64,000 nucleotides of DNA from Lebetimonas natsushimae (GTDB lineage Bacteria; Campylobacterota; Campylobacteria; Campylobacterales; Nautiliaceae): NCBI RefSeq assembly GCF_002335445.1, contig NZ_BDME01000001.1:372001-436000 (forward strand). Direction: 5' to 3'. Within the stretch, counting starts at the first letter, position 1; every line of letters starts with the position of its first letter. The translations under genes and the position numbers were made by a program. This document shows, piece by piece, positions 32,175 through 64,000 of this stretch. The notes under the pieces are model-generated. The model had not been told where the DNA came from. It did not search any database and was given only the letters and a program-made list of their open reading frames with translations.

Positions 32175-34211
32175 ATGAAATCTGTTTGCACATATTGCGG
32201 TGTGGGGTGTGAAATAGATGCCAAAATTCAAGATGATAAAATAGTAAAAATAAAACCTGTTAAAGACGGTATTTCAAGTGGTGGTGAACTTTGTATAAAA
32301 GGAAGATATGGGTTTGAATTTTTAAACAATAGGCTTAAAAAACATTTAATTAACTATAAATTTATTAAAAAAAATGCTCCTAATATGCCGCTTGAGCTTC
32401 AGGTAAGACTTGCCAACTTAACTCCTTACAATGAAAATTTTTATGAAGCGCCTTTGAGTTTAGCTGTTGATATAACTGCTTGGAAACTCAAAGAAATTAT
32501 AAAAAATTTTTCTTCTCATTCAATTGCCTGCATTGGAGGTGCTAGGACAAGTATTGAAAGTGCCTGGTTTTTTCAGCATTTTGCTAGAAAAGTTTTAAAA
32601 ACACCACATATAGACAACTGTGCGAGGGTTTGTCACGGTCCGAGTCTGAGCGGTCTTAAAATGAGTATAGGTGAGGGGGCAAGCAGTGTGGATTTTGATG
32701 CCATTTTTGATACGGAGGTTATTTTTATAATTGGTTCTAACACCACAGAAGCACACCCGATGGTTGCAAGCAGAATTATAAAAGCAAAAAAAAGAGGTGC
32801 TAAAATAATAATTGCTGATGTTAGAGAAATTCCTGTTATGAAATTTGCCGATATTAAGGTTATTTTACCATTTGAATCAAATCTTTTATTTTTAAATGCA
32901 ATTGCAAAAGAGTTAATTGAAAATAATCTAATAGATGAAGAATTTATAAAAAATAGATGTGTTAAGTTTGAAGATTATAAAAACTTATTACTTCACGATA
33001 AATATGATAAGCATTTTTTTGAAAAATTAAACGGGTTTAAACAGATAAAAACCAAGATTGAAGAAATAGCGAAAATTATTACTAAAAAAACAATTTTTGT
33101 CTGGGGGCTTGGGGTTACAGAACATATTGACGGAACAGAGGCAGTTAACGCCATAAGTAATCTGGCAATGCTTACAGGTAATATAGGTAAAAATGGGGCT
33201 GGAGTTTTACCTCTTAGGGGGCAAAATAATGTCCAAGGTGCGTGTGATGTGGGATGTCTTCCATATTATGGGCCGGATTATCAAATACCTGAAGAAATAG
33301 GATTAATGACACCTGATGTAATTGAAGAGATGTTAAAAGGTAAAATAAAAGCACTTGTGAATATGGGGGAAGATATTTTACACATTCATCCGAATCAAAA
33401 TAAAATTAAAAAAGCTTTTGAAAATTTAGAATTTTTAGCAGTTTTGGAAGTAATGGAAAATGAAATTACAAAAAAAGCTGATATTGTATTTGGCGTAAAA
33501 AGTGCATATGAAAAGAGCGGAGTTTATATAAATGCCGAGCGAAGACTTCATCTCTCAAACCCTTTAATTGAATCCGATTTGCCGGATGATTGGGAAATAT
33601 TGCAAAAAATAGCAAATAGATTTGATAATATATTTAATTTTAGTTCCAGTGAAGAAGTATTTGAAGTAGTTAGAAAAGAAGTAAAGAGATTTGAGGGTGC
33701 CACATATGAGAGATTAAAAGAAAAATCTCTTCAATGGCCAATAGACAAAAATGGAAATGATTCTCCAATTTTACATACCCAAAATTTTTCAACACCTGAT
33801 GGAAAAGGGCATTTTCATTATCATAAATATCATTTAAGAGGAGAAGTTAAAGATTTGGTAGAAAATAAAAAAAGATGGTGGTTAAATACAGGCAGGGCAT
33901 TGCCACAGTATAACAATGCAGCCCAGACAAAACATTCAGATAAACTTTCAAAAAGATACGGTGATGATATATTACTTGTTAATCCAATTCACAAAAATGA
34001 AATAGGAGAATTTGTCAAATTAAAATCAGTTTATGGAGAAAGTGCTCCAGTTAAAGTAAAATTTAGTGAATCTGTCAGACCTTATACTCTTTTTACAACT
34101 TTTCATTTTGCAAAAAATAAAATAAATTATCTTTTTGGAGACGCTCACGACCATAAAGTAAAAACAGCTAGATTTAAAGCAGTGGAGGTGGAAATAATAA
34201 ATGTTGATTGA
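32175..34211 (+). CDS. Formate dehydrogenase-like molybdopterin protein, cysteine type
   Basis: A 678-residue cytoplasmic protein without signal peptide. A [4Fe-4S] site is C5-x2-C8-x3-C12-x27-C40 (SVCTYCGVGC), and C153 in NCARVCHGPS stands exactly where FdhF has selenocysteine, so this is a Cys-form formate dehydrogenase alpha-like protein. The bis-MGD motifs GSNTTEAHPM and LRGQNNVQGACDVG are present, with RWWLNTGRALPQYN near the end. It lacks the N-terminal ferredoxin domain of larger NAD-linked enzymes. It overlaps mnmH by 11 bases. It may reduce CO2 or oxidise formate; partner subunits are not adjacent. Confidence 0.8.
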   Translation: MKSVCTYCGVGCEIDAKIQDDKIVKIKPVKDGISSGGELCIKGRYGFEFLNNRLKKHLINYKFIKKNAPNMPLELQVRLANLTPYNENFYEAPLSLAVDITAWKLKEIIKNFSSHSIACIGGARTSIESAWFFQHFARKVLKTPHIDNCARVCHGPSLSGLKMSIGEGASSVDFDAIFDTEVIFIIGSNTTEAHPMVASRIIKAKKRGAKIIIADVREIPVMKFADIKVILPFESNLLFLNAIAKELIENNLIDEEFIKNRCVKFEDYKNLLLHDKYDKHFFEKLNGFKQIKTKIEEIAKIITKKTIFVWGLGVTEHIDGTEAVNAISNLAMLTGNIGKNGAGVLPLRGQNNVQGACDVGCLPYYGPDYQIPEEIGLMTPDVIEEMLKGKIKALVNMGEDILHIHPNQNKIKKAFENLEFLAVLEVMENEITKKADIVFGVKSAYEKSGVYINAERRLHLSNPLIESDLPDDWEILQKIANRFDNIFNFSSSEEVFEVVRKEVKRFEGATYERLKEKSLQWPIDKNGNDSPILHTQNFSTPDGKGHFHYHKYHLRGEVKDLVENKKRWWLNTGRALPQYNNAAQTKHSDKLSKRYGDDILLVNPIHKNEIGEFVKLKSVYGESAPVKVKFSESVRPYTLFTTFHFAKNKINYLFGDAHDHKVKTARFKAVEVEIINVD

Positions 34212-35187
34212 TATGGAGGATTATTTAAAAACTGATTTTGATGTTATTATTGATGTCAGAAGCCCGAAAGAATTTGAAGAGTCACATATTCCTGGAAGTA
34301 TAAATCTTTATGTGTTAAATGATGAGGAACATCACGAAGTAGGGTATTTATACAAGCAGGTTTCAAAAAAAGCCGCTAATAAAAAAGGGGTTATTTATAT
34401 CTTAAAAAATATTTCCCATCATCTTGCAAACAATGATTTTGAAAATAAAAAAATTCTTATTTACTGTGCAAGGGGAGGAAAGAGGTCCGAATCTTTTTAT
34501 ACTATTTTAAGACAGCTTGGATATGATGTTTACAGATTGAACAAAGGTTACAAGGGATATAGAAAATATGTTACTAATTATTTACAAAATATAGAGCATA
34601 ATTTTTTGGTACTTAGGGGTCCTAGCGGCTGTGGTAAAAGTGAATTACTGCAAAATTTAACCCCTAGCCTTGATCTGGAAGGTTTTGCCAATCATTACGG
34701 CAGTTCTTTTGGTGCAAGGGGAGAGCAGCCCTCTCAAAAAATGTTTGAAAATATGATTTTTGAAAAATTAAGGAAAATAGACAAAAACGATTATGTTTTT
34801 ATAGAGGCTGAGAGTTCAAGGATTGGAAATTTACTGCTCCCCGGAAATTTGACAAAAAAAATAAAATCATCACCCCAGATAGAAATAAATGCGCCTCTGG
34901 ATGACAGAATTGAAAGGATTTTGAAATATTACGGAGATATTGATAAAAATGAATTTGTTAATAATTTAAATAAAATAAAAAAATATATATCAAATGAAAG
35001 CTATGATGAAATACTTTATAATTTTGAAAAAGGCAACTTAAAAACTGTTGCCAAAATTTTGCTTGTGGATTATTATGACAAAGTATATAAGAAAAAAGAT
35101 GCTGATTATTTTATATTAAATAATAATTTAGAAGAAACTTTAAAAAAAATAAAAGAAATAAAAGAAAAATTTGTTAAAATTTTTTAA
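34201..35187 (+). CDS. mnmH: tRNA 2-selenouridine synthase MnmH (SelU)
   Basis: MnmH exchanges sulfur for selenium in wobble 2-thiouridine of tRNAs, using selenophosphate from SelD. The 328-residue protein has an N-terminal rhodanese domain (FDVIIDVRSPKEFEESHIPG, catalytic cysteine in LIYCARGGKRSE) and a C-terminal P-loop domain (LRGPSGCGKSELLQNL) with GQP-type EQPSQKMFENMIF and EAESSRIGNLLLP. Length is close to the usual 350-370. GGAGG lies 12 bases before the ATG, which is inside the end of the upstream formate dehydrogenase-like gene. It shows that selenium is also used in tRNA here. Confidence 0.92.
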   Translation: MLIDMEDYLKTDFDVIIDVRSPKEFEESHIPGSINLYVLNDEEHHEVGYLYKQVSKKAANKKGVIYILKNISHHLANNDFENKKILIYCARGGKRSESFYTILRQLGYDVYRLNKGYKGYRKYVTNYLQNIEHNFLVLRGPSGCGKSELLQNLTPSLDLEGFANHYGSSFGARGEQPSQKMFENMIFEKLRKIDKNDYVFIEAESSRIGNLLLPGNLTKKIKSSPQIEINAPLDDRIERILKYYGDIDKNEFVNNLNKIKKYISNESYDEILYNFEKGNLKTVAKILLVDYYDKVYKKKDADYFILNNNLEETLKKIKEIKEKFVKIF

Positions 35188-40594: not shown

Positions 40595-40693
40595 GGAGGG
40601 GATGTGATCCTGGTGGACACCTCGGGCTTCAAACCCGATGGGGCGGTAGGTGACTACTTGCCCGGAAGGTTCGATTCCTTCCCCCTTCCGCCA
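40595..40693 (+). tRNA. selC: Selenocysteine tRNA (anticodon TCA)
   Basis: A 99-base tRNA with the anticodon stem-loop TCGGG-CTTCAAA-CCCGA (anticodon TCA, reading UGA), a long variable arm (GGGC..GTAG-GTGA-CTAC..GCCC), T arm GGAAGG-TTCGATT-CCTTCC, and an extended acceptor GGAGGGG ending in CCTTCCGCCA with encoded CCA. Length, long variable arm and TCA anticodon identify it as tRNA-Sec. TATAAT at 40576-40581 is its promoter. selA, selB and selD lie within 6 kb. Confidence 0.95.
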
Positions 40694-42315: not shown

Positions 42316-43665
42316 ATGAATCTGTTTAGACAAATTCCAAAAGTAGATAAACTTTTAAAAAATAAAAATCTTCAGGATATTCCGGAAAATGTTTTGATTT
42401 ATTCAATACATTCAGTTTTGGATGAATTAAGGGAAAAAATAAAAAACAGTCAAATTGATAAAATTGATGAAGAAAAAATAATTAATAATATTGTAAAAAA
42501 GGCAGATGATATACTTTCTCCTTCTTTAATCAATGTAATTAATGCCACAGGTGTGACAATTCATACAAATCTTGGCAGAAGTTTGATTGACGAAGAAATT
42601 TTTAACGCGGCCAAAAAAGTCAGTACACATTATTGCAATTTGGAATATGATTTAAATAAAGGCAAAAGGGGGGACAGGTATCATCACAGTGCAAAACATT
42701 TAAGTTTTTTATTTAATTGTGAAGATGCTCTGATAGTAAACAATAACGCAGCAGCCGTGTTTTTGATATTAAATACTTTTGCAAAAGAGAGGGAAGTTGT
42801 GGTATCAAGGGGAGAGCTTGTTGAAATAGGCGGAAGTTTCAGGGTGCCTGAGGTTATGAAAGCAAGCGGTGCAAAACTTGTGGAAATCGGTACTACCAAT
42901 AAAACTAAACTCAAAGATTATGAAGAGTCTATTAATGAAAATACAGCAATGCTTATGAAAGTTCATAAATCAAACTATACTATAGAAGGATTTACCGAAG
43001 AAGTTTATATTGATGAAATTATCAAGCTTTCCCGTAAATATAATCTTCTTGATTATTATGATTTGGGAAGTGCTTACATTCCAAAGCTTCCTTACGGACT
43101 TTCAAATACTGAACCATCTATCAATGATATTATGAAACTATCCCCCTCACTTGTGAGTTTCAGCGGAGATAAACTTTTCGGAGGTGTTCAGGCGGGAATA
43201 ATTATTGGTAAAAAAGAATTAATCAATAAACTCAAAAAAAATCAGATATTAAGAATGTTCAGGGTGGATAAAATTACACTTTCTTTGATCCAAGCCACGA
43301 CACTTGCATATATTAAAAAAGAATATGAAAAAATTCCAACCCTAAAGCAGATTTTTACTTCAATAGATACTCTTAAACAAAAGGCAAAAAAAATACTTTC
43401 TCTAACTCCGAGCTTAAGGGCTAATATAAAAGAATCAAAGACTTATGTAGGCGGAGGAACGATGCCAAATAAGGAAATACCTACAGTGGTGATTGAAATT
43501 GAGGGAAATGCCCTTAGTTGGGAGAGAAAATTTAGGGAAAAACTGGTTATCGGCAGAATAGAAAATGACCGTTTTGTTTTGGATATGAGAACAATTCAGG
43601 ATGATGAAATAGAAAAACTAGCTAGTATTATAAACGAATTAATAAGCTGTGAGGTGAAAAAATGA
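42316..43665 (+). CDS. selA: L-seryl-tRNA(Sec) selenium transferase
   Basis: SelA is the decameric PLP enzyme that turns Ser-tRNA(Sec) into Sec-tRNA(Sec) with selenophosphate. The 449-residue protein has the family's VINATGVTIHTNLGRSLI (about residues 74-91), GKRGDRYHHSAKHL, VNNNAAAVFLILNTFA, and the PLP lysine in VSFSGDKLFGGVQAGIIIGK (about residues 276-295). It follows a likely TAAAAT promoter and a 17-base palindrome, and overlaps selB by 4 bases. Confidence 0.97.
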   Translation: MNLFRQIPKVDKLLKNKNLQDIPENVLIYSIHSVLDELREKIKNSQIDKIDEEKIINNIVKKADDILSPSLINVINATGVTIHTNLGRSLIDEEIFNAAKKVSTHYCNLEYDLNKGKRGDRYHHSAKHLSFLFNCEDALIVNNNAAAVFLILNTFAKEREVVVSRGELVEIGGSFRVPEVMKASGAKLVEIGTTNKTKLKDYEESINENTAMLMKVHKSNYTIEGFTEEVYIDEIIKLSRKYNLLDYYDLGSAYIPKLPYGLSNTEPSINDIMKLSPSLVSFSGDKLFGGVQAGIIIGKKELINKLKKNQILRMFRVDKITLSLIQATTLAYIKKEYEKIPTLKQIFTSIDTLKQKAKKILSLTPSLRANIKESKTYVGGGTMPNKEIPTVVIEIEGNALSWERKFREKLVIGRIENDRFVLDMRTIQDDEIEKLASIINELISCEVKK

Positions 43666-45491
43666 GGAATATAATTATCGGAACCGCAGGACATGTAGAC
43701 CACGGAAAAACATCTTTGATTGAAGCAATGACAGGATATAACGGGGATGAGCTAAAAGAAGAAAAAGAAAGAGGAATTACGATTGATCTGAGTTTTACAA
43801 ATATGAAAAGAGGGGATGTAAATGTTGCGTTTATTGACGTACCGGGTCATGAAAAGCTTGTAAAAAATATGATTAGCGGTGCGTTCGGATTTGATGCAAC
43901 TCTTTTTGCAATTGATGCAAATGAGGGTATTATGCCTCAAACCATAGAGCATTTGGAAGTTTTGGATATTTTAAAAGTAAAAAACATTATTGTGGCTTTG
44001 ACAAAAATAGATTTAGCAAGCGAAGAGATTATTGAAAAAAGAAAAAAAGAGATAAAAGATTTAATAGCTAAATTTAAAAATTTAAAACTGCTTGATATTA
44101 TTCCAACTTCAACCAAAATGCCGGAAACCATAGAAAATCTTAAAAATTATCTTTTTAATCTGCCTCCAAGAAACATAACCCATTCTAAGTTTTTCAGATA
44201 TTATATAGACAGGGTGTTTTCCCTAAAAGGTATAGGTACTGTTGTAACGGGAACGGTTTTGAGCGGTAAAATAAGGCTTAAAGATAAAGTTTATGTTAAT
44301 GAAACGGGAACTATCACAACAGTTAAAAATTTGCAGGTACACGGTGAAAATGTAGCCGAAGCCCATACACACCAAAGACTTGCAATTAATCTTAATATTT
44401 CCCACAATGAACTTAAAAAAGGATATTTACTAAGTACGAAAGGTTACCTCAGGGGATTTAAATTAATAGATGTGTATATTGCTCCGGTAGAAGGTAAAGA
44501 AATTAAGCACAATATGGAAGTTTTATTTATTAGCGGGGCAAAAAGAATACCTGCAAAAATTTTGATGTTTGATCAAAATGCAAAAGAAGGATTTGCAACA
44601 ATTAAACTTGAAGAAAAAGCATTTTTAGTTTATGGCGATCCTTTTGTAGTTCTTTACAAAGGTAGGGTAGTAGGGGGAGGAGAAGTGCTAAATCCTATAA
44701 GCGACCCTATTAAGAAAAATAAAAAATTGGAACTTTTAAAAGCATTACATAAAAAAGATTTTCAAACTGCGTTTTCTATTTTGGTGGAAAATCACAAACG
44801 AGGATTTGGCCTAATTCAAAGTTATCAAAGATTTAATTTTTCGCCTGATGAAGCTTTAGGAATTGCAAAAACATTAAAAAATGTATTTATTGATGAGGAA
44901 AATTACAATGTTTTTTCTCTTGATGTAAAAAAAGAAATAGAAAATGTAATTAAAGAAACATATGAAAAAAACAAATTTGCATTTTTATCTCCTGCATCGC
45001 TTAAGCTGAGGTTAAAATGGGCGAGTGAAAAACTGATAGAAACTGTTTTAAATGAATTTGTAGAAGATGGATTTTTAATAAAAGAGGGAAATATTTACAA
45101 AAGAAAAGATTTAGGAAACGTTAATATTGAAAAATCGGTAGAACACAGATTATACACCCTTTTGGATAATTCAGGGTTGACCCCGGAAGCACCTTATAAT
45201 ATATACGAAAAGTTAAATATTGACAGAAAAGTGGGCGACCAGGCTATGAAGAACCTTACAAAAGCCAAAAAAGTGGTAAGACTTGCCCATAATCTGTTTG
45301 TTACTGATAAAAATATAAATTTAGCCATTAAAAAAATGAAAGAAATAATAAAAAAAATTGGATATATTGATATTAAAACATTTAAAGAAGAGATGCCGAT
45401 GAGCAGAAAATATATCGTGGCTTATCTTGATTATCTCGATAATATGGGCGACATAATAAAAATAGAAAATAAAAGGTATTTAAAAAAATAG
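43662..45491 (+). CDS. selB: Selenocysteine-specific elongation factor SelB
   Basis: SelB brings Sec-tRNA to UGA codons marked by a SECIS hairpin. The 609-residue protein has EF-Tu-like GTPase motifs GTAGHVDHGKTSLIEAMTG, ERGITIDLSF, DVPGHEKLVKNM and ALTKIDL, then barrel domains and a C-terminal series of winged helices (about residues 380-609) that bind SECIS RNA. Length matches SelB, not the shorter EF-Tu. It overlaps selA by 4 bases and converges with selD across a 180-base inverted-repeat spacer. Confidence 0.96.
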   Translation: MRNIIIGTAGHVDHGKTSLIEAMTGYNGDELKEEKERGITIDLSFTNMKRGDVNVAFIDVPGHEKLVKNMISGAFGFDATLFAIDANEGIMPQTIEHLEVLDILKVKNIIVALTKIDLASEEIIEKRKKEIKDLIAKFKNLKLLDIIPTSTKMPETIENLKNYLFNLPPRNITHSKFFRYYIDRVFSLKGIGTVVTGTVLSGKIRLKDKVYVNETGTITTVKNLQVHGENVAEAHTHQRLAINLNISHNELKKGYLLSTKGYLRGFKLIDVYIAPVEGKEIKHNMEVLFISGAKRIPAKILMFDQNAKEGFATIKLEEKAFLVYGDPFVVLYKGRVVGGGEVLNPISDPIKKNKKLELLKALHKKDFQTAFSILVENHKRGFGLIQSYQRFNFSPDEALGIAKTLKNVFIDEENYNVFSLDVKKEIENVIKETYEKNKFAFLSPASLKLRLKWASEKLIETVLNEFVEDGFLIKEGNIYKRKDLGNVNIEKSVEHRLYTLLDNSGLTPEAPYNIYEKLNIDRKVGDQAMKNLTKAKKVVRLAHNLFVTDKNINLAIKKMKEIIKKIGYIDIKTFKEEMPMSRKYIVAYLDYLDNMGDIIKIENKRYLKK

Positions 45492-45672: not shown

Positions 45673-46716
45673 TTATTTAACGACTAAAGGAACTTCTTTA
45701 AATTCTTTAACGATTGCTATTGCCTTTGCGTTTATTCCTTTATCTTCCATTCTTTTTAAAAGTTTTTCCGCTTTTTCCTGAGATATACTGATTAAAAGTC
45801 CCCCGCTTGTCTGTGCGTCAAATAAAATCATCTGTTCTTCAAAACTTAAGTTTTTTTCAAATTTTACTTTTCCTTCTAAAAACATTTGATTATTATAACT
45901 TCCGGCAGGTATAATTCCCATAGCGGCCTGATTTATTGCTTCTTTTAAGAAAGGTACATTTTCAAATTCTATCTCTATTGTAAAATTATTTGCACTCATT
46001 TCATATAAATGTCCCAAAAGTCCAAAACCTGTAACGTCAGTCATTGCATTTACGCCAATTTCCCTGGCAATAAGGCTTGGTTTATAATTTAGCGTTCTTA
46101 AAATATCAGCGACTTCGGCGGCTGTGTTTTCATCCACTAAATCGGCTTTTATTGCCGTTGTTAAAATTCCCATTCCAAGAGGTTTTGTAAGAATAATTAC
46201 ATTATCTTTTTTTAAAGTGTTGTTTCTTATTATTTTTTGCGGATGAATTGTGCCTGTAACACTTAGACCGTAAATCATCTCCGGTGTTTCTATTGTATGA
46301 CCTCCTGCCAGTACCCCGCCGCACTCTTTTATTTTACTTTCCCCGCCTTTTAATATTTCATTTAAAACTTCTTTTCCGTGATGGCAGTTGTCAAATCCGA
46401 CAAGATTAAGGGCAGTTTTTACATCCCCTCCCATTGCAAACACATCGCTTAGGGAATTGGCAGCCGCAATCTGTCCGTAAACAAAAGGGTCGTCAACCAC
46501 AGGCGTTATAAAATCGGCTGTTTGCACAAGTGCTAAATCATCTGTTAATTTATATACACTTGCATCTTCATTTCCCTCAAATCCGACTATTAAATTTTCA
46601 TTTTTGCCATCAAGAACTTTTGTCGCTTTGTTTAGCTCCTCCGGAGCCAGTTTTCCTGCTCAGCCAGCTGCTCTTACATATTTTGTGAGTTTTGCACTGT
46701 TGTTTAGTTTAAGCAT
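45673..46716 (-). CDS. selD: Selenide, water dikinase SelD, itself a selenoprotein (UGA at codon 19)
   Basis: SelD makes selenophosphate from selenide and ATP. Read from the ATG at 46716 (AAAGGAAATAT upstream), the 347-residue protein starts MLKLNNSAKLTKYVRAAG, then UGA (46662-46660), then AGKLAPEEL. SelD proteins have Cys or Sec exactly here, so UGA is selenocysteine 19. A SECIS hairpin follows. Later motifs are QTADFITPVVDDPFVYGQIAAANSLSD and GGDVKTAL and GGHTIETPE. A gene caller would wrongly begin it at 46527. It is the last gene of the minus-strand operon. Confidence 0.95.
46634..46648 (-). promoter_or_regulatory. SECIS element of selD
   Basis: On the minus strand GGCTCC-GGA-GGAGCT forms a 6-base-pair stem (one G-U at its base) starting 12 bases after the UGA codon. 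GG of the loop is 18-19 bases after UGA, where bacterial SECIS loops sit. Confidence 0.75.
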
Positions 46717-46725
46717 ATATTTCCT

Positions 46726-47082
46726 TTAAAATGTTATTACTTTGTCTGCTTCTTCTACCCAGGCTGCTAAATCTTTCATAGTGGCTTTTATTTCCGGTGC
46801 AAAATATGGTTCGTTTTTAAATAATCCGCATCTTGCCTGACAAGTTCCGCATACTTTTAGTTTTATTCCGTTTTGATACATTTCTTTAAGCATTGCAACC
46901 AAATCGTTATCGTAATTTTCAGGTTTTTTATTACAGTCCCTTGCCATATCCACTGCGTCATTCATTAGAAAAATTCTTACATCATTTCCTTTTTCAAATA
47001 AAACTTTTGCAAGTCTAAGTCCGTTCCATGCTACATCGCTTCCATCATATGGCTCATGATTAAAAATAATTAGAATTTTCAT
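46726..47082 (-). CDS. DsrE-family protein of the selenium operon
   Basis: A 118-residue cytoplasmic DsrE/DsrF-like protein. It starts MKILIIFNHEPYDGSDVAWNG with the typical nucleotide-like fold, and has a cysteine group C78-G-T-C81-Q-A-R-C85 on the expected active loop (DsrE family uses a cysteine at this place to carry sulfur). The family relays persulfide sulfur between TusA-type carriers. Here it lies 9 bases before selD and overlaps the MerP-like gene by 4 bases, so a role in carrying selenium or sulfur to SelD is inferred. Confidence 0.8.
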   Translation of the reverse strand: MKILIIFNHEPYDGSDVAWNGLRLAKVLFEKGNDVRIFLMNDAVDMARDCNKKPENYDNDLVAMLKEMYQNGIKLKVCGTCQARCGLFKNEPYFAPEIKATMKDLAAWVEEADKVITF

Positions 47083-47360
47083 TTTACCTCCTTTATTTGT
47101 TGTATTTTTCCTTTATAACCCACAACTTCTATTGCATGTAAAAGTTTTTTTGGAGTTGTTTTTGTATTATCAAAAATCACTGCTGCAGTTTTTGTATGCA
47201 GCAATACTTTTGCTTTTATAACTCCAGGTGTCATTTTTAAACTTCTTTTTATTGCCGTTGTGCACAGAGGACAAGTCATTCCGCTTACTTGAATAATAGC
47301 CACTTTTTCAGCACTAAAAAGTGAGTTTAATAATATTAAACTTAAAAATATTTTTTTCAT
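47079..47360 (-). CDS. MerP-like periplasmic heavy-metal-associated domain protein
   Basis: The 93-residue protein has a signal peptide (MKKIFLSLILLNSLFS) and an HMA domain with G-M-T-C30-P-L-C33 (VSGMTCPLCTTAIKRSL), the soft-metal binding motif seen in MerP and copper chaperones. In mercury operons MerP hands Hg2+ to MerT. Here the neighbouring gene is a MerT fused to a TusA domain, and the operon ends in selD, so I infer that the pair carries a selenium species. It follows the fusion gene with no gap and overlaps dsrE by 4 bases. Confidence 0.8.
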   Translation of the reverse strand: MKKIFLSLILLNSLFSAEKVAIIQVSGMTCPLCTTAIKRSLKMTPGVIKAKVLLHTKTAAVIFDNTKTTPKKLLHAIEVVGYKGKIQQIKEVK

Positions 47361-47942
47361 TTACTCTCCCATAAACAGATATTGTGCCCAAAAAGGGTAG
47401 GTTAGCATAATTAATACAAAGACTGTGCCGATGCTTAAATATTTTACATAATTTTTGCAAATGCTGCCGCTGCAAACAGGCCTTTTTCTTAATTTTAAAA
47501 AATAATTCAGCCACAAATAAATAATAATAGTAGCGGCCGCAATTGTAAAATAAATTCTATAAGGTGCAAAAATATGTAAAAACGAAAGACTTCCGACACT
47601 CACTCCAAAAATTAAAAATAATAATGGTCCTAAACAGCAGGTGCTTGCCAAAATTGCAGTTATTGCGGCACCAGCTATAAGAGCCCAGAAAGATTTTGAT
47701 TCTTTACTTTCCGGAATTTCGCAAGAATAACCTTTTATGGCGTTAATTATTGTATTTTTCCCTTCTTTTTTTTCATTAAAATAAATTCCCTGGTTTTGTA
47801 AAAATCTTTTTACATTTTGGATTGAAGAGAAGGAATTAAGTTTTATTTCCAAAATTCCTTCCTCCATTTCTTCTAATGCCTCTTTTGTTTTAAGTACAGG
47901 TTCCGGACAAGCTAAATTTCTTAAATCCAGTTTTTTTACCAT
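47361..47942 (-). CDS. TusA-MerT fusion membrane protein
   Basis: The 193-residue protein joins two families. Residues 1-78 are a TusA/SirA domain with C12 in ACPEPVLKTKEALEEM and C74 in GYSCEI; they closely follow the TusA half of the YedF protein at 49076. Residues 85-193 are MerT-like: three transmembrane helices (85-110, 128-149, 166-188), a vicinal C102-C103 in ASTCCLGPLLFLIFG, and C157-x4-C162 in the second loop, as in MerT. TusA would be cytoplasmic. I infer that it takes up a selenium compound from the MerP-like protein and passes it to a TusA-type carrier. Mercury is an alternative ligand. Confidence 0.85.
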   Translation of the reverse strand: MVKKLDLRNLACPEPVLKTKEALEEMEEGILEIKLNSFSSIQNVKRFLQNQGIYFNEKKEGKNTIINAIKGYSCEIPESKESKSFWALIAGAAITAILASTCCLGPLLFLIFGVSVGSLSFLHIFAPYRIYFTIAAATIIIYLWLNYFLKLRKRPVCSGSICKNYVKYLSIGTVFVLIMLTYPFWAQYLFMGE

Positions 47943-49066
47943 TAAAACAGTTCCTGAGAAGTAATTTTATATTCAAAACTTTTTGGTACGTAATAATTTA
48001 ATACATCGTCATTTACCTCAGCATATGGATAACCGAACATATTAAGAGGATATTGCACCGGTTTTGGATAAAGCACAAAATCTCTTGCATGGTTAAATCC
48101 AACCCAGTTCATTTCCCATGAGTGAAGATATTTTTTAACCAATTTTTGCACTTTTGGATTGTCGTAAGAATATTTTTCCACTAATTCAAGTTTTGTAACA
48201 TCCGCCGGATCTGTTGGTATCCAACCGGCACCCGGAATGTAATATTCAGCCCTGCAGTGCTGCCATGTTGTAATATTTGCAAAACCTTTGCTATCGCTTT
48301 TTCCAAGTGCTTTGTCAAAATGGCTTTTTCCAAGTCTGATACCAAAAACTTCTCTTGCTGGAATCCCCGCCGCTCTTGTCAGGGCTGTAAAAAGTGAGCT
48401 TAAATCTGTACATTTTCCTCCAAACCATCCGTTTTTATAAATATATTCGGCAGTCGGTTGTTTTTGTTCCTGCATCATTTTCCCAACTTCACCTTTTCCA
48501 CATCCTACTACTTTAGGATTTCTGAAAGTGTGAGCCGTACACCACAAATAAATAGCTTTTACTTTTTGGAATCTATCTTTTTTACCTTTGGTAATAAGTT
48601 CCGCCACTTCTTTAACAAGCCCGTTTGTTGGAATATGAGCAGTCGGTTTTAGATATTTAAGCACCTCTTTTGGATACGGCAGATTTTTTTTGCTGGCTTC
48701 TTTAATCAGTTCTAAAGGAACGCTTCTGTCTTTTGTTTCAATTTCCATTTCCATTGTCAAAATTTTTGGCATTGCTGATTTTTCCCACTCGGCATAAAAA
48801 GTATTTGCATTATATTCATTTTTATTATTTATATCGTAATCGTTGTAATTTCCACCAAATCTTAAAAATTTTATTTTTTGATAAGGTGCGTTGTATGGAA
48901 GAGGGTTCCAAAGTCTGGCCGGATAAACCGGTTCGTCGTATTTTATATTGAAATAATATTCAACTCTGAATCTTCTAACCTTTTCATCATTAGCACTTGC
49001 AATACTCGGCAGTGATGCCGTCAGTCCTAAAGCTGCACCTGTTTTTAAAAATTCTCTTCTTTTCAT
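47942..49066 (-). CDS. Tat-exported transglutaminase-like protein
   Basis: The 374-residue protein starts MKRREFLKTGAALGLTASLP, a Tat signal with RR at residues 3-4. A transglutaminase-like catalytic triad is visible: C219 in GWFGGKCTDLSSLFTALTRAAGIPAREVFG, H270 in WQHCRAEYY, and D286 in WIPTDPAD. Such domains act as cysteine peptidases or peptide-bond transferases. A second cysteine group (C176, C189, in AIYLWCTAHTF and KVVGCGKGEV) is not part of the family core. Its presence between yedF and tusA-merT is unexplained. Its stop overlaps the next start by one base. Confidence 0.75.
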   Translation of the reverse strand: MKRREFLKTGAALGLTASLPSIASANDEKVRRFRVEYYFNIKYDEPVYPARLWNPLPYNAPYQKIKFLRFGGNYNDYDINNKNEYNANTFYAEWEKSAMPKILTMEMEIETKDRSVPLELIKEASKKNLPYPKEVLKYLKPTAHIPTNGLVKEVAELITKGKKDRFQKVKAIYLWCTAHTFRNPKVVGCGKGEVGKMMQEQKQPTAEYIYKNGWFGGKCTDLSSLFTALTRAAGIPAREVFGIRLGKSHFDKALGKSDSKGFANITTWQHCRAEYYIPGAGWIPTDPADVTKLELVEKYSYDNPKVQKLVKKYLHSWEMNWVGFNHARDFVLYPKPVQYPLNMFGYPYAEVNDDVLNYYVPKSFEYKITSQELF

Positions 49067-49075
49067 TTTGCTTCC

Positions 49076-49666
49076 CTATAAACTTATTGTATTTTTGTGA
49101 AGTAAAAAGTCCATTGTATCGTATGCGTTTCCAATTTCTCCGACTTTAAGTTCTTCAGGCGGAATTTTGTAATAATTCATACATACGCCGCAGGAATAGA
49201 TTTTTACACCCCTTTTTTCAAATTCTTTTAGAATTTCTATTGTTTTTTCATTTTTTGAAGTTAAAAACACACCTCTGTTTACACATACTATAATTTCCGG
49301 AAGTTTATTAAATTCAAGTGTGGTTTTTAAAAATCCCTCCATCAATATATGACCAAGCTCACCTTCTCCTACTTTATCATCTTTTATGAACAGAACTTTA
49401 TCTAAGAATTTGTCGCTATCATCTTCTTGTGGGGCGATGCTGCACTCATATCCTTTTACAATTCTGATTATGGTTTCACCGTTGTCAAGTTTTTCTTCTT
49501 CTGCCACAAGCCCCTGATTTGCTGCAAATCTTTTAACATTTTGAACAGATGATACAGCATTTACCAAAACTTCTAAAATTCCTTCATCCATACTTTCCAA
49601 TGCTTTTTTTGTTTCAAGTACCGGTTGTGGACATGCCATATTTCTGCAATCTATTTTTTTATTCAT
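49076..49666 (-). CDS. yedF: Selenium metabolism protein YedF (TusA plus DsrE-like)
   Basis: The 196-residue protein has an N-terminal TusA domain (C12 in NMACPQPVLETKKALESM, C75 in KGYECSI) and a C-terminal DsrE-like domain (KVLFIKDDKVGEGELGHILMEGFLKTTL, C128, and C159-G-V-C162). This two-domain form is the YedF family that co-occurs with SelD across genomes. It is thought to carry selenium or sulfur as a bound persulfide/selenide. The TusA half is paralogous to that of the MerT fusion. Overlaps the ATPase gene by 8 bases. Confidence 0.88.
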   Translation of the reverse strand: MNKKIDCRNMACPQPVLETKKALESMDEGILEVLVNAVSSVQNVKRFAANQGLVAEEEKLDNGETIIRIVKGYECSIAPQEDDSDKFLDKVLFIKDDKVGEGELGHILMEGFLKTTLEFNKLPEIIVCVNRGVFLTSKNEKTIEILKEFEKRGVKIYSCGVCMNYYKIPPEELKVGEIGNAYDTMDFLLHKNTISL

Positions 49667-50426
49667 TTATTCCTCCTTTTAACATTTCATATCCGCTTAA
49701 AGCCGCTCCGAATGCCCCCATCATCTGAGGATATTCGGGAGTGTATATTTCTTTTTTTAGTTTTTTTGAAAGCAATTCTTTTAAAAGTGAATTTTTAGCG
49801 CCTCCTCCTGTGAATACCACTTTATCTTCCGGTCTTATGCTTTTAGCCATTCCCGCAAGTCTATTGGCAATTGAATCAATAATTCCGTATCCTATATTTT
49901 CAGGCTTTTCTTTTTTTGCTATAAGAGAAATTACCTCAGATTCGGCAAATACCGCACACATTGAAGATATTTGTATAACTTTGTTGGCTTTTTTACAAAA
50001 ATCTCCAAATTCATCAAGCGGAATCTGTAGTTTTGCAGCTGCCATTTCTATAAATTTTCCTGTCCCGGCTGCGCATTTATCGTTCATTTTAAAGTTGTCA
50101 AAATTTCCGCCTTCAGTTACTTTTATTACCTTGCTGTCTTGTCCTCCTAAATCAATAACTGTCCTAACATCTGGAAAGAAAAAATAAGCCCCTTTCGCAT
50201 GGGCTTTGATTTCACTTATAACCGGCACGTCAAATGCTTCTTGTATCATGTATCTTCCATACCCAGTGGCGACAAGAGTTTCAATTGGTTTATCTTTTAA
50301 ATACTCTTTTACCTGTTCGTCAGGATTTATAACTGTATCTAATACTTTAATGTCTATAATATTTTTGTTTTCATCAATTCCCACAATTTTTGTATAGGTT
50401 GAGCCTATGTCAACTCCGTAATACAT
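49659..50426 (-). CDS. ATPase activator of the double-cubane reductase (YjiL/HgdC-like)
   Basis: The 255-residue protein belongs to the BadF/BadG/BcrA/BcrD ATPase family: GVDIGSTYTKIVGID as phosphate loop, VIDLGGQDSKVIKV, and two cysteines C118 (NDKCAAGTGKFIEMAA) and C157 (SSMCAVFAESEVISL) that bridge a [4Fe-4S] cluster between two subunits. Such activators use ATP to push low-potential electrons to a partner dehydratase-like protein. Size and partner match E. coli YjiL, the reductase of double-cubane cluster proteins. One base overlaps the partner gene. Confidence 0.85.
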   Translation of the reverse strand: MYYGVDIGSTYTKIVGIDENKNIIDIKVLDTVINPDEQVKEYLKDKPIETLVATGYGRYMIQEAFDVPVISEIKAHAKGAYFFFPDVRTVIDLGGQDSKVIKVTEGGNFDNFKMNDKCAAGTGKFIEMAAAKLQIPLDEFGDFCKKANKVIQISSMCAVFAESEVISLIAKKEKPENIGYGIIDSIANRLAGMAKSIRPEDKVVFTGGGAKNSLLKELLSKKLKKEIYTPEYPQMMGAFGAALSGYEMLKGGINE

Positions 50427-51739
50427 TAAAATCCTTTAAATTTCACATTCTTTTTAAATGAAATGCTTTCTAAAAATGCTTCAACCCTTGTTTTAATCTG
50501 GCCCATATCTTCCATTGAATAATCTGATTCAATTCTTAAAATCGGTATATTTTCAGCCTGGAGTCTGTCTATTACTTTTTTTGATTCAACATTATATGTA
50601 TGACAGAAAGAGAGTGAATAATAAATGATTCCGTCTGCTTCTCTTTCTTTGTACATTTTGATAATTTTGTCTATTCTCCCCTCATTCGGTGTAAAACATG
50701 CACAGTCTATTTTCATGTATCTCTCAAGCATTCTTTCCATTAAATCATCAACATTTTCAGCCCATTGTGTATCTATATTGTCTTTATAGTATCTGTGACC
50801 GATACATGCTTCTTCGTTTATAATAACGCCTCCTGTTGTTTCGACTATATGGTGAAGTTTCCAGTTTGGAGGCGCCATAGGCGTACCTATTACCATAATT
50901 CTTGGAGTGTCTTTTGGTACTACAGAGACTTTATTTTTTATTCTCTCTTCAAGTTCATCACATAGTTCGTTAACTTTTTGCGTAAATCTTTCTGGGTCGT
51001 CATAAAAAGAGATTTGATTAATTAAAAGTCCGTCTTTTCCGCTGATTGGCACTACATCAGGATACATTCCTCTGAGTTTGTCAAGACGCTGCATTGCCTC
51101 TCTTTTTTTATTGATAATTTCAATTCCTTTTTTAAGTTCTTCAAATGTCAGTTCTCTTCCTATTATTGATTCTATGTGTTTTTTAAAATCATATATTTCG
51201 CTTTTCCATAGTTCTTTTTCTTTTTCCCTTTTCATTTGAGGAATATGCATTACATGGGTTGGATGGATTTCATTTAAAATTTCCCACGTTTTTTTCTTTG
51301 CCTCGCAGCTTGTTTCACCGTAGATAAAATCTGAAGCCTGTGTATAAGGGCATGTTCTTTGGACTTTAAACCCGTAAGCGGATTTGATTAAAGGACATAT
51401 GTTTCTTGGTAAATCCCTTTCGGCATCTGCAATTGAAAATTCAGCCCCGCCGCATAAACCATAACAAGCACCGTCAGCCCCGACAATTATCTCTTCTGGT
51501 ACAAAAATACAAAAAGTTCCAACTAAAGGTTTTCCTTCTTTTTTCTTTTCCATAAGCTCTTCTATTCTTTTACCGTGTATTTCACTCATTACATAATCAA
51601 AATATTCCATTGCTTTTGGTCTGTTTTCCTGTTTTAAATAAAATTCGGGATATATTTCACCAAGTGCAGCCAATAATTCATTATGTTTTTCTATATCCAT
51701 ACCTAATTCTTGATATAAAGGTGTGTAATCTTTAGACAT
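50426..51739 (-). CDS. Double-cubane cluster protein, 2-hydroxyacyl-CoA dehydratase family (YjiM/HgdB-like)
   Basis: The 437-residue protein is of the 2-hydroxyacyl-CoA dehydratase D-component family: [25 protein letters not shown] gives C77, C92 and C96, with C115, C130 and C145 next, and later cysteines in [18 protein letters not shown] and SFCHTYN. The number of cysteines fits a double-cubane [8Fe-9S] cluster protein, rather than an acyl-CoA enzyme, since no alpha-subunit or CoA-gene neighbours exist. Together with the ATPase it may reduce a small molecule; in this selenium operon, reduction of an oxidised or elemental selenium species is inferred. Longer than YjiM (about 383). Confidence 0.75.
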
Positions 51740-53672: not shown

Positions 53673-54431
53673 ATGAATAAAAATTTATTGGAAATTAAAG
53701 ATTTATGGGTAAATATAAATGATAAACCAATCCTTAAAGGAATAAATTTATCTATAGCCAAAGGAGAATCACATGTAATATTTGGTAGGAACGGTTCTGG
53801 TAAGTCCACACTTTTAGGAAGTATAATAGGGCTTCCTCATCTTAAAATAGTAAAAGGAGATATCCTTTTTAAAGGAAAATCTATATTAAATCTGCCTATG
53901 TATGAAAGAATAAAAATGGGCATAGGAATAATTTTTCAGCGTCCTCCTACAATAAAAGGGGTAAAATTAGAAAAACTTCTGCAAATTATAAATAGATCTA
54001 AAGAAAATATACAAAATATCGCTAAAGAACTTAAATTACATGAACTCTTAAAAAGAGATGTAAATGACGGATTTTCCGGAGGGGAAATAAAAGCTTCCGA
54101 AATTATGCAGTTATTTTTGCAAAATCCTGATTTGCTGCTGTTGGATGAGCCAGATGCGGGAGTTGATGCAGATAATATAAAAATTATTTCAAATTATATA
54201 AATAAATTATTACAAGCAGATTTGCCAAAAGAGAGAAGAGAAAAATCGGCAATAATAATAGTTCACAGTGGAATTATTTTGGAGTATGTAAATATAGATA
54301 TCGGACATGTAATGGTTGATGGAAAACTTACCCCACCTGCCAATCCTTATGAGATTTTAGACATGATAAAAAAATTTGGCTATAAAAAATGCTATGAATA
54401 TTTCAGTAAAGGTAAAAAAAATGGAGAATGA
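53673..54431 (+). CDS. SufC/SmsC-like ATPase of a minimal SUF system
   Basis: The 252-residue ABC-type ATPase has Walker A GRNGSGKST (about residues 38-46), signature FSGGEIKASEIMQ, Walker B LLLLDEPDAGVD and a His loop VHSG. SufC-type ATPases of this kind (no transmembrane partner, SGGE followed by K rather than R) act in cytosolic iron-sulfur cluster assembly with SufB. Only two genes occur here, so this fits the minimal SmsCB system. The gene ends 11 bases inside the next gene. An ABC transporter ATPase is less likely because of the partner. Confidence 0.88.
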   Translation: MNKNLLEIKDLWVNINDKPILKGINLSIAKGESHVIFGRNGSGKSTLLGSIIGLPHLKIVKGDILFKGKSILNLPMYERIKMGIGIIFQRPPTIKGVKLEKLLQIINRSKENIQNIAKELKLHELLKRDVNDGFSGGEIKASEIMQLFLQNPDLLLLDEPDAGVDADNIKIISNYINKLLQADLPKERREKSAIIIVHSGIILEYVNIDIGHVMVDGKLTPPANPYEILDMIKKFGYKKCYEYFSKGKKNGE

Positions 54432-55455
54432 AAAAATTCTCTCTTCAGTAGGATTTGAGTGTTCTGACAATAAACGTTCAGGTTCTTTTCTTGTTGTTGA
54501 TGAGGATATTGCCAAAATGAAAAATTTGAATAAAAAACTAGAAATTATGCCTTTAAGCGAGGCTGTTGAAAAATATCCGTGGTTAAAAAATCATTTAAAA
54601 TCTGTTTCTAAAAATTTATTGGGATATTTTATAAGAGTATTGCCTGATAGCGAGATAGATTATCCTATTCAAACGGGATTTTATATGGAAAAAAATAAAC
54701 AGCAGATTATTCATAATGTTTTGGTAGCAGAACCAAACAGTAAGGTTCATTTAATATCTGGCTGTGTATCTTCTGTAAACGGAGAAAAACATGTTGGAAT
54801 TAATCATTATTTTATTAAAAAAAACGCATCGCTTACCCTTACTAAAATTCATAATTGGCCGGATGTTATTACTTCGTTTTCAAAAGATAATGTAGTGGTA
54901 GGAGAAAATGCAACTTTTATTTCAAATTATGTAGGCTTGACTTTAGGTAAAAAGAATAAATCTAATTTAGTTATTAATATTGGAAAAAACGGTGTAGCTG
55001 TAATAAATTCGATTGTTTATGCAAAAGAGAATAATACTTTATATATAAATGATAAAATATTCTTAAATGAAGAAGGTGCAAGGGCTGATATTTTAAGCAG
55101 AACTATTTCTAACGGCGGAAAATGTTTTGTTAAAGAATGTATTTCAGGGCGCGGTAAAAATACAAAAGGGCATATTGAATGTGACGGTCTTTTGCTTAAT
55201 AACAACGGAATAATATATTCAATGCCGGCTTTAGAGGCTATGCATTCACAGACAGATTTGTCCCATGAAGCGGCTGTGGGAAAAATATCTGAAGAAGAAT
55301 TGATTTATTTAATGTCTAAGGGAATAGATGAAGAAAGTGCAAAAACTCTTATAATTCAAGGCTTTTTGGAAAATAAAATCCAGGATTTACCAATGGATTT
55401 ACAAAAATCTGTTGAAAATTTAATACAAAGAATTTCTACTGAAGGCGCTATATAA
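54421..55455 (+). CDS. SufB/SmsB-like iron-sulfur cluster scaffold of a minimal SUF system
   Basis: The start at 54421 (MENEKILSSVGFECSDN) is preceded by AAAGGTAAAA; an upstream ATG at 54376 would lie inside the ATPase gene. The 344-residue protein has the SufB beta-helix core and the C-terminal SufB motif KGHIECDGLLLNNNGIIYSMPALEA, in which the cysteine corresponds to the scaffold Cys of SufB, followed by DLSHEAAVGKISEEELIYLMSKGIDEESAKTLIIQGF. The N-terminal extension of full SufB is missing. With the ATPase it would build Fe-S clusters for the ferredoxin and formate dehydrogenase subunits. Confidence 0.88.
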   Translation: MENEKILSSVGFECSDNKRSGSFLVVDEDIAKMKNLNKKLEIMPLSEAVEKYPWLKNHLKSVSKNLLGYFIRVLPDSEIDYPIQTGFYMEKNKQQIIHNVLVAEPNSKVHLISGCVSSVNGEKHVGINHYFIKKNASLTLTKIHNWPDVITSFSKDNVVVGENATFISNYVGLTLGKKNKSNLVINIGKNGVAVINSIVYAKENNTLYINDKIFLNEEGARADILSRTISNGGKCFVKECISGRGKNTKGHIECDGLLLNNNGIIYSMPALEAMHSQTDLSHEAAVGKISEEELIYLMSKGIDEESAKTLIIQGFLENKIQDLPMDLQKSVENLIQRISTEGAI

Positions 55456-61428: not shown

Positions 61429-64000
61429 ATGAGCTCACAAGAAAAATTAAACGTTAAAGTGGGCAGAAGGGCATTTTTAAAAATGGCTGCACTCTCAGGA
61501 GTTGCAGGTGCAACAATGCTAAATGCTGCACCGGCTGTTAGAAGTGCAAGCGATGAAGAATTAAAAAGCCCTTACCCAGGTAGTAAAAAAGTTAAAACTG
61601 TATGTACTACATGTTCAGTTGGGTGTGGAATTATTGCAGAAGTTTACAATGGTGTGTGGGTAAGACAGGAGGTTGCTCAAGACCATCCAATCAGTCACGG
61701 AAGCCACTGTTGTAAAGGTATCGATTCAATCGATAATGTAAGAACAGAAAAAAGAGTTAAACATCCTTTAAAAAAAGTTAACGGAAAATGGCAAAGAATC
61801 AGTTGGGATCAGGCCATTAACGAAATTTCAGAAAAAATGCTTAAAATCAGAAAAGAGAGTGGTCCTGATGCAGCAATGTTTTTAGGGTCTGCAAAAATGA
61901 GTACAGAGCAGGCTTATTATTTTAGAAAATTTGCTGCAATGTGGGGGACAAACAATATAGATCACCAAGCACGTATTTGACACAGCGCAACAGTCGCGGG
62001 GGTCGCGAACACATGGGGTTATGGCGCTATGACAAACCATTTGGGAGATATTCAAAATTCTAAAGCAATTATAATTTTTGGTGCTAACCCAGCAGTTAAC
62101 CATCCGGTAGGATTTAAACACATTTTAAAAGCAAAAGAAAGAAATAATGCTACTTTAATTGTAATAGATCCAAGATATACAAAAACTGCTGCAAAAGCAG
62201 ACCTTTATGCAAGAATTAGACCGGGTACTGACATTCCATTTATGTACGGTATGCTTCATTTAATATTCAAACACGGCTGGCATGATGAGTCATTCATTAA
62301 AGACAGAGTGTTTGGTATGGAACATGTAATAAAAGAAGCAAAAAAATGGACTCCGGAAAAAGTTGCAGATGTAACAGGTGTTGATGTTGATACATTAATT
62401 GAAATTACAAGAGCTTATGCTACAAGTAAACCTGGAACATTAATTTGGGCAATGGGTCTAACTCAGCATTCAATTGGTTCATCTAATACAAGAATGGCTC
62501 CTATATTACAGCTTTCTTTAGGCAATATGGGTAAATTCGGTGGTGGATGTAACATTTTAAGAGGACATGATAATGTTCAGGGTGCAACAGATATGTGTTG
62601 TTTATCACATTCACTTCCTGGATATTACGGATTAAGTGAAGGAAGTTGGAAATATTTTGCACATAACTGGGGAGTTGATTTTAAATGGCTACAAAGAAGA
62701 TTTGATACTCCAAAAATGATGCATACAAAAGGATTTACACTTGCTAAATGGTGGCAAGGAGTACTTAGAGAAGAAAAAATTTATCAAAGAACACCAATAA
62801 GAGCTCTATGGGTACAAGGAAACGGTATCACTTCAATTGCCCAGACAGCAAAAGTACAACAGGCTCTTGATAAATTGGATTTATTGGTTGTTGCAGAACC
62901 GTTTGCAAACGAAGCTGCGGTAATTACAAATAAAAAAGACAATGTTTATATTTTACCAACTGCAACTCAGTTTGAAAGTGAGGGAAGTGTTACTGCTACA
63001 AACAGAACTGCTCAGTGGAGAAGTAAAGTAGTAGATCCACTTTATGAATCTAAAACTGACGAAGAAATTATGTTTGCATTTGCTAAAAAATTCGGTTTTT
63101 ATGATGAATTTGTACGTGGTATGATGATGGGTGTAAGAAACGGAAAAGCCGTAAAAGTTAAAAATACATTCAAATGGCCAGAAGATGCTACAAGAGAAAT
63201 TGCAAGAATTATTAAAACTATCGGTTTAACAGGTTGGACACCTGAGAGACTAAAAAGACATCAGCAAAACTGGCATATGTTTGATGAAGTAACCCTTAAG
63301 GGTATAGGTCCTATGAAAGGCGAATATTACGGATTGCCATGGCCATGCTGGACTGAAGATCACCCTGGAAGCCCAGTATTGTATAACATAGATATTCCAG
63401 TAATGGAAGGTGGAATGGGATTCAGGGCAAGATTCGGTACTGAATATAAAGGTCAGGATTTATTGGCAGGACCTCATGCAACTATTAAAGGTGCAAAAGT
63501 AAAAGGCGGATATCCTGAACTCACAAAAGACAATATTGAAAAAGTTCTTGGTATTAAACTTTCACCAAGAGAAAAAGCTATTATGGGTAAAAACTGGAAA
63601 GTCGACTTAAGCGGTCTTATTGCAAAATATGCTCTTAAAGCAGGAGTTGCACCATACGGTAATGCAAGAGCAAGGGCTTATGTATGGACATTCCCAGATA
63701 AAATCCCAATGCACAGAGAACCGCTTCATACACCAAGATATGATTTGGCTAAAAAATATCCGACATATCCTGATAAAAAGAACCATTACAGGGTTGATAC
63801 AAAATATATGTCAATTCAAAAAACAGATTGGGCAAAAGAATTCCCAATTATTCTTACAACAGGAAGACTTGTTATGTACAGCGGTGCCGGAATTATTGAA
63901 AGAAGTAGTAAATACCTTGCTGCATTGGTTCCTGAAATGTTTGCAAGTATTAACCCAGAACTTGCTTACAAATATGGAATTAAAGACGGTGATATGATTT
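61429..64000 (+). CDS. fdhA: Selenocysteine formate dehydrogenase catalytic subunit FdhA (cut by window edge)
   Basis: The frame is open from 61429 to the window edge except for UGA at 61978-61980, codon 184, in NIDHQARI-U-HSATVAG, the exact place of Sec in formate dehydrogenases, so it is read as selenocysteine. The Tat signal has RR (GRRAFLKMAALSG). The [4Fe-4S] site is C59-x2-C62-x3-C66-x27-C94. FGANPAVNHPVG and RGHDNVQGATDMCC are bis-MGD-binding. 857 codons are visible; the C-terminus and Fe-S and cytochrome partners would be beyond 64000. It oxidises formate in the periplasm. A gene caller would split this gene at UGA. Confidence 0.95.
61984..62030 (+). promoter_or_regulatory. SECIS element of fdhA
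   Basis: TCGCG-GGGGT-CGCGA (61994-62008) is a perfect 5-base-pair stem starting 13 bases after UGA. GG of the loop is 19-20 bases after UGA, as in E. coli fdhF. AGCGC (61984-61988) can pair with GCGCT (62024-62028) as an outer helix. Confidence 0.85.

Follow-up and report, generated by a model that had tools for sequence, protein, structure and literature searches.

The protein YedF and the selenide, water dikinase SelD have been linked to each other (PMC5322559), which matches the statement, made in a prior sequence-only reading of the DNA analysed here, that their co-occurrence is established, and the partners of YedF in Slackia heliotrinireducens have been listed without discussion in Table 1 of the same work (PMC5322559). 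A further protein, the double-cubane cluster protein (DCCP), has been called provisionally linked to selenium (PMC10418091). Here we describe a minus-strand operon in a window of 64,000 nucleotides (the whole stretch of DNA analysed, positions 372,001 to 436,000 of contig NZ_BDME01000001.1) from Lebetimonas natsushimae, a hydrothermal-vent type member of the Nautiliaceae (Campylobacterota), whose link to selenium is strong. The conserved core of this operon is a triad rather than the whole set of genes, and it consists of a transglutaminase-like protein (TGL), MerT, here fused to a YedF-type TusA domain, and a MerP-like protein. We know of no dedicated bacterial selenide importer that has been proven, and the physiological role of DCCP is, to our knowledge, likewise not established. 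The reading that we favour, in which the operon acquires selenium and delivers it to SelD, with the triad as the importer, is given a probability of about one half (0.5), as judged from sequence.

The sequence-only reading had placed eight tightly packed genes on the minus strand at 45673-51739, and this was borne out, with the families confirmed by profile searches (Table 1). They run in the order DCCP, activase, YedF, TGL, TusA-MerT, MerP-like, DsrE and SelD, and overlaps or gaps are at most 9 nt throughout: DCCP and activase have 1 nt in common (50426), activase and YedF overlap by 8 nt, 9 nt separate YedF from TGL, TGL shares 1 nt (47942) with TusA-MerT, which abuts the MerP-like gene, and the latter overlaps the DsrE gene by 4 nt, with a gap of 9 nt before selD. 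As gene order is kept in relatives, this arrangement is not due to chance; scans for promoters and terminators gave no more matches than chance.

The tie to selenium is seen most clearly when genomes with and without SelD are compared. Among Nautiliaceae, the TusA-MerT fusion is found in 7 of 8 genomes with SelD vs none of 12 without it, a count that leaves out one genome with a SelD fragment, and the usual order in the family is YedF-TGL-TusA-MerT-MerP-DsrE-SelD, sometimes followed by selA-selB. In a class sample of 298 Campylobacteria genomes, SelD is present in 223 and TGL (threshold E<1e-70) in 88, all 88 of which have SelD; counted by genus, the 20 genera with TGL all fall within the 39 genera with SelD (p ~4e-5). 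All 11 genomes of this sample that carry the fused TusA-MerT have SelD, and none of the 75 SelD-negative genomes carries it. The proposal that the operon serves selenium metabolism, which was to be abandoned if the fusion occurred in genomes lacking SelD, is supported by its absence from such genomes in both the class and the family.

The partner that MerT and SelD keep most consistently is TGL, which was assigned no role in the sequence-only reading. Of the named TGL loci (the best 80 of 251), 61 are from Campylobacterota. Among these, 56 could be evaluated for the gene after TGL, and it is MerT in at least 51 of them (fused in 25, unfused in 26; a wrong start kept a 52nd, L106, out of the count), while 26 of the 61 have SelD within ~3 kb. 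Outside Campylobacterota, Methylobacillus has TGL without MerT next to selD, Tepidiphilus has such a TGL next to selB/selA, SelD is present in the TGL genomes of Aquificota and Alphaproteobacteria, and overall it was found in 27 of 34 other TGL genomes searched. In Arcobacteraceae, selB-selA-selD, DCCP-activase, a DsrE-type YedF fragment (YedF-C) and TGL-MerT-MerP are gathered in one place.

Several local arrangements were also observed. In two Arcobacteraceae loci (L184, 8881-9222; L183, 7788-8132), a short YedF match without a TusA hit lies between activase and TGL as a stand-alone DsrE-type piece. L186 (6519-9250, genome G239) shows an independent arrangement of the set, in which selD and TGL share a strand with a divergent TusA-MerT-like gene and the three overlap or almost touch, and in L191 (7640-10122, G233) tandem TGL copies (279 and 385 bits) are followed by MerT and MerP.

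That the organism uses selenium is certain, because the window has selA, selB, tRNA-Sec, mnmH and a Sec-type fdhA (Table 1); its uses are selenocysteine (Sec) and, by mnmH, tRNA selenouridine. The selD gene itself contains an in-frame TGA at 46660-46662 (minus strand), which is codon 19 and stands at the selenocysteine position of the N-terminal active site; the standard open reading frame call gives 284 aa only, and read-through of this one TGA, which is also present in selD of close relatives, gives the corrected extent. Searches for a selenocysteine insertion sequence by single-sequence folding gave z values of -0.8 and -1.7. Other Sec genes were looked for in stretches making up ~48% of the genome, which leaves the selenoprotein list incomplete. 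The presence of tRNA-Sec has already been noted in Nautilia profundicola (PMC2628731).

Upstream of the operon lie tRNA-Sec, selA and selB and, at a greater distance, mnmH; downstream come fdhD, a ModE-like regulator and the Sec-type formate dehydrogenase gene, and SufC- and SufB/SmsB-like iron-sulfur assembly genes (53673-55455, plus strand) come after fdhD and the regulator. A Cys-type relative, a formate dehydrogenase gene too, is found at 32175-34211, with mnmH after it, and both selenium traits, Sec and tRNA selenouridine, fall within ~30 kb.

Table 1. The selenium operon and associated genes in the window, followed by related loci in other genomes under their locus labels.
Feature	Position	Strand	Evidence
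DCCP-type reductase	50426..51739	-	NF040772 479 bits (cut-off 350)
Activase, ATPase partner of DCCP (BadF/BcrAD family)	49659..50426	-	TIGR00241 247 bits (cut-off 125); PF01869
YedF, TusA + DsrE-like domains	49076..49666	-	TIGR03527 195 bits (cut-off 110), full-length
TGL, twin-arginine (Tat)-signal transglutaminase-like protein (cysteine-protease fold)	47942..49066	-	PF01841
TusA-MerT fusion, 193 aa	47361..47942	-	TusA and MerT Pfam domains in a single protein
MerP-like HMA protein, likely signal peptide, GMTCPLC motif	47079..47360	-	PF00403; TIGR02052 54 bits (cut-off 92.6)
DsrE-family protein	46726..47082	-	PF02635 75 bits
SelD, selenide, water dikinase, selenoprotein	45673..46716	-	TIGR00476 357 bits (cut-off 125)
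selA	42316..43665	+	TIGR00474 543 bits
selB	43662..45491	+	TIGR00475 315 bits
tRNA-Sec (selC)	40595..40689	+	found in window
mnmH/selU, tRNA 2-selenouridine synthase, user of SelD product	34201..35187	+	TIGR03167 318 bits, over cut-off
Formate dehydrogenase catalytic subunit (second), selenoprotein	61429..64000, past window end	+	in-frame TGA 61978-61980, context QARI-U-HSATVAG
TtrA-like molybdenum reductase in relatives' selenium operon	L074 6490-9260 (G001); L076 9269-12736; L078 4174-7605
Nitrosospira/Nitrosovibrio TGL loci without SelD, without adjoining MerT	L153, L157, L158, L160, L162, L165, L167

The proteins of the triad carry conserved cysteines. In TGL, the residues Cys219, His270 and Asp286 are invariant, as are two more cysteines, 189 and 271; a sequence search against solved structures gave no match, and the AlphaFold2 (AF2) model (pLDDT 88.6) had the cysteine protease 3isr and TgpA as its nearest Foldseek neighbours, so that the PF01841 match, these residues and the Foldseek hits 3isr and 6g49 identify a papain-like fold with a Cys-His-Asp triad. 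The fusion protein comprises a TusA domain (residues 1-64), which scores as YedF-type (55.6 bits vs 16.6 for TusA and 17.9 for YeeD), and a MerT domain (residues 80-189). All of 29 fused proteins have C12 (in a CPxP motif), C102, C103 and C157, and nearly all have C74. The AF2 model of the fusion, of middling quality (pLDDT 73, pTM 0.41), has a TusA fold and then three helices, and because basic residues precede helix 1 and follow helix 2, the positive-inside rule suggests that the TusA domain and the C157 loop are cytoplasmic. The MerT part passes with its Pfam domain alone, scoring 48.5 bits vs 150 against the equivalog PRK13751, and the MerP-like protein also stays under its equivalog cut-off (Table 1). 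An ordinary mer operon was considered and set aside as unlikely, given that no match to MerA over cut-off was found in 41 relatives and that YedE is lacking in Nautiliaceae.

DCCP matches the solved Carboxydothermus DCCP (6eno/7yyl) with 510 bits over nearly its full length, keeps the motif cysteines and has an adjoining activase gene. In the 298 Campylobacteria genomes, DCCP of at least 440 bits is accompanied by SelD in 35 of 35 and by TGL in 34 of 35 cases, and lower-scoring DCCP by SelD in 9 of 17. The sequence-only reading included the double-cubane pair in its proposed route; that it is a fixed part did not hold, since the pair is found in just three Nautiliaceae members and is missing from G002, G005, G008, G013 and G017, where the remaining operon genes are kept. 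Its patchy presence rules it out as a fixed part, and it is retained as an accessory. Some relatives also have a Tat-exported, TtrA-like molybdenum reductase with a fused iron-sulfur subunit (B+A; 515 bits to TtrA, cut-off 1750), which in G005, G013 and G007 has YedF (or DCCP-activase) on one side and TGL on the other; in G007 the contig stops inside the gene, and its position before TGL is presumed. G005 and G013 have the reductase intact, G001 keeps a decayed remnant of it, and the window genome has none.

For the favoured selenium import system, we infer the direction, the substrate, the order of hand-over and the roles of TGL and DCCP as follows. The MerP-like protein, aided by the exported TGL, would bind reduced selenium in the periplasm via its CxxC motif, either as selenide or as Se(0) in the form of perselenide or selenotrisulfide, and would pass it to C102/C103, the Cys-Cys pair of helix 1 of MerT, and on to C157 in the cytoplasmic loop, from which it could be taken up by C12 of the fused TusA domain. 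YedF and the DsrE protein would then carry protein-bound selenium inward to SelD, which would make selenophosphate, to be used by SelA for the Sec of FdhA and SelD and by MnmH for tRNA selenouridine. The DCCP-activase pair may assist as an option, perhaps as a reductant of low potential, driven by ATP, that releases selenide from selenium in carrier-bound or oxidised form; this role is plausible and weaker than the import reading. The import mechanism, putative in its direction and substrate, is the simplest one to find a use for all the conserved parts and to account for the missing YedE here. The conserved cysteine relay, the precedent of a transporter joined to a TusA-type protein (YeeE-YeeD, PMC11073785) and the selenium demand in the window (fdhA, selD, mnmH) count in favour of this reading.

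Several observations weigh against selenium import by the triad. The co-occurrence counts take no account of shared descent below genus, and for the fused form taken by itself the association does not reach significance within the class sample (11/11, p 0.07). Some genomes with SelD have neither TGL nor YedE, the 7 of 34 other TGL genomes that lack SelD form one Nitrosospira/Nitrosovibrio clade whose TGL has no adjoining MerT (Table 1), DCCP is missing in most relatives, and TGL has no defined role. The only substrates that MerT is known to take are ions of soft metals, chiefly Hg(II). The relationship to YedE also bears on this point: the sequence-only reading saw no YedE in the window and suggested that MerT might replace it, and the absence extends to the whole of this genome and to Nautiliaceae, which were searched with TIGR04112. 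Among the 41 genomes whose TGL is of the closest type, 39 likewise lack YedE and 2 have it, but 43 of the 88 TGL genomes (Campylobacter-like and others) have both TGL and YedE, so that general replacement of YedE by MerT is ruled out for Campylobacter-like genomes.

The triad might instead move sulfane sulfur (persulfide, polysulfide or thiosulfate-derived) for sulfur metabolism or respiration, and the promiscuity of chalcogen carriers would explain why it shares an operon with selD. Sulfur is the main cargo of TusA and DsrE proteins, YeeE-YeeD imports thiosulfate (PMC11073785), and the molybdenum reductase before TGL in G005, G013 and G007 resembles TtrA, which like Phs acts on sulfur compounds; we nevertheless hold sulfur transport to be unlikely, as the link to SelD is strict in Campylobacterota, selA, selB and selD are nearby, the TusA domain is of the YedF type, and the triad is retained where the reductase is broken (G001) or gone (the window genome). 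Somewhat less probable is a role in dealing with a soft metal, mercury or a different one, such as shielding selenoproteins from Hg(II) or trapping the Hg(II) as HgSe, in which case selenol enzymes as the target would explain the SelD link. Vents are metal-rich, and the MerT and HMA/MerP domains keep their cysteine motifs. MerT selenoproteins have moreover been listed (PMC9312934) and modelled (NF045683). Against such a role stand the lack of MerA over cut-off in the 41 relatives, a MerT-fused TusA domain without evident use for Hg, and a constant partner, TGL, that is not a known mer component.

Two independent functions could also have come together in one operon, selD, YedF and DsrE serving selenium and TGL-MerT-MerP with the double-cubane pair serving something unrelated. 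The presence of DCCP-activase and of the molybdenum reductase does vary, and G025 and Campylobacter-like genomes have the triad by itself, at a distance from selD, but co-occurrence with SelD in 88 of 88 genomes and adjacency that recurs in several families despite differing gene orders make this a shade more improbable again than metal handling. The lowest probability falls to a system that exports or detoxifies selenium instead of importing it. YedE itself has been suggested to be an exporter (PMC5322559). The molybdenum reductase of the relatives could act on selenium oxyanions, but the carrier chain points to SelD and co-loss with selD in Nautiliaceae fits supply, not detoxification. MerT, moreover, is an importer family.

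With these alternatives weighed, selenium import and delivery to SelD remains the favoured reading. In its fullest form, which is advanced only tentatively, TGL-(TusA-)MerT-MerP would be an undescribed Campylobacterota selenium importer, made of a retooled soft-metal permease and a fused cytosolic carrier, with TGL releasing selenium outside and an ATP-driven DCCP finishing the reduction for SelD in some lineages. The module provides a concrete, recurrent and knock-out-ready importer candidate in cultured relatives (Sulfurospirillum, Arcobacteraceae), extends the list of selenium genes by a family of exported transglutaminase-like proteins, gives DCCP a genomic context, and bears on the old open question of how selenium is delivered to SelD without free toxic selenide. 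Literature searches that paired MerT with TusA, or combined it with selenium and SelD, returned no description of the module or the fusion, with many subscription papers lying outside that search. The TGL-MerT-MerP module and the TusA-MerT fusion thus appear to be new, while a tie to selenium was already known for YedF and, provisionally, for DCCP.

Among known systems, the selenium cluster of Slackia comes close in that STRING there connects YedF with SelD, with a transglutaminase-like enzyme and with both an activase and a 2-hydroxyglutaryl-CoA dehydratase subunit, whereas MerT and MerP are not listed. YedE-YedF (FdhT-FdhU; TIGR04112/TIGR03527) likewise pairs a membrane protein with a TusA/DsrE carrier linked to SelD, and a true YedF is present here, but YedE has about ten helices, as opposed to a three-helix MerT with fused TusA. 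In thiosulfate uptake by YeeE-YeeD (TsuA-TsuB), the transporter also works with a TusA-type protein, to which it is fused in Spirochaeta thermophila (PMC11073785), although the membrane protein is unrelated and the TusA domain here is of the YedF and not the YeeD type. MerT/MerP mercury uptake shares the MerT and HMA domains with their Cys-Cys and CxxC motifs, while the proteins here differ in scores under the equivalog cut-offs, the TusA fusion, the lack of MerA over cut-off and the tie to SelD and TGL. The MerT/CopZ fusion-like heavy metal transport selenoprotein (NF045683) also combines, in organisms that use selenium, a permease of the MerT type with an HMA partner, as opposed to the MerT here, which is without Sec and reaches 37 bits vs a cut-off of 375. 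Finally, the Carboxydothermus DCCP (6eno/7yyl) resembles the protein described here in sequence and in its activase partner, and the difference is that the latter sits in a Campylobacterota selenium operon.

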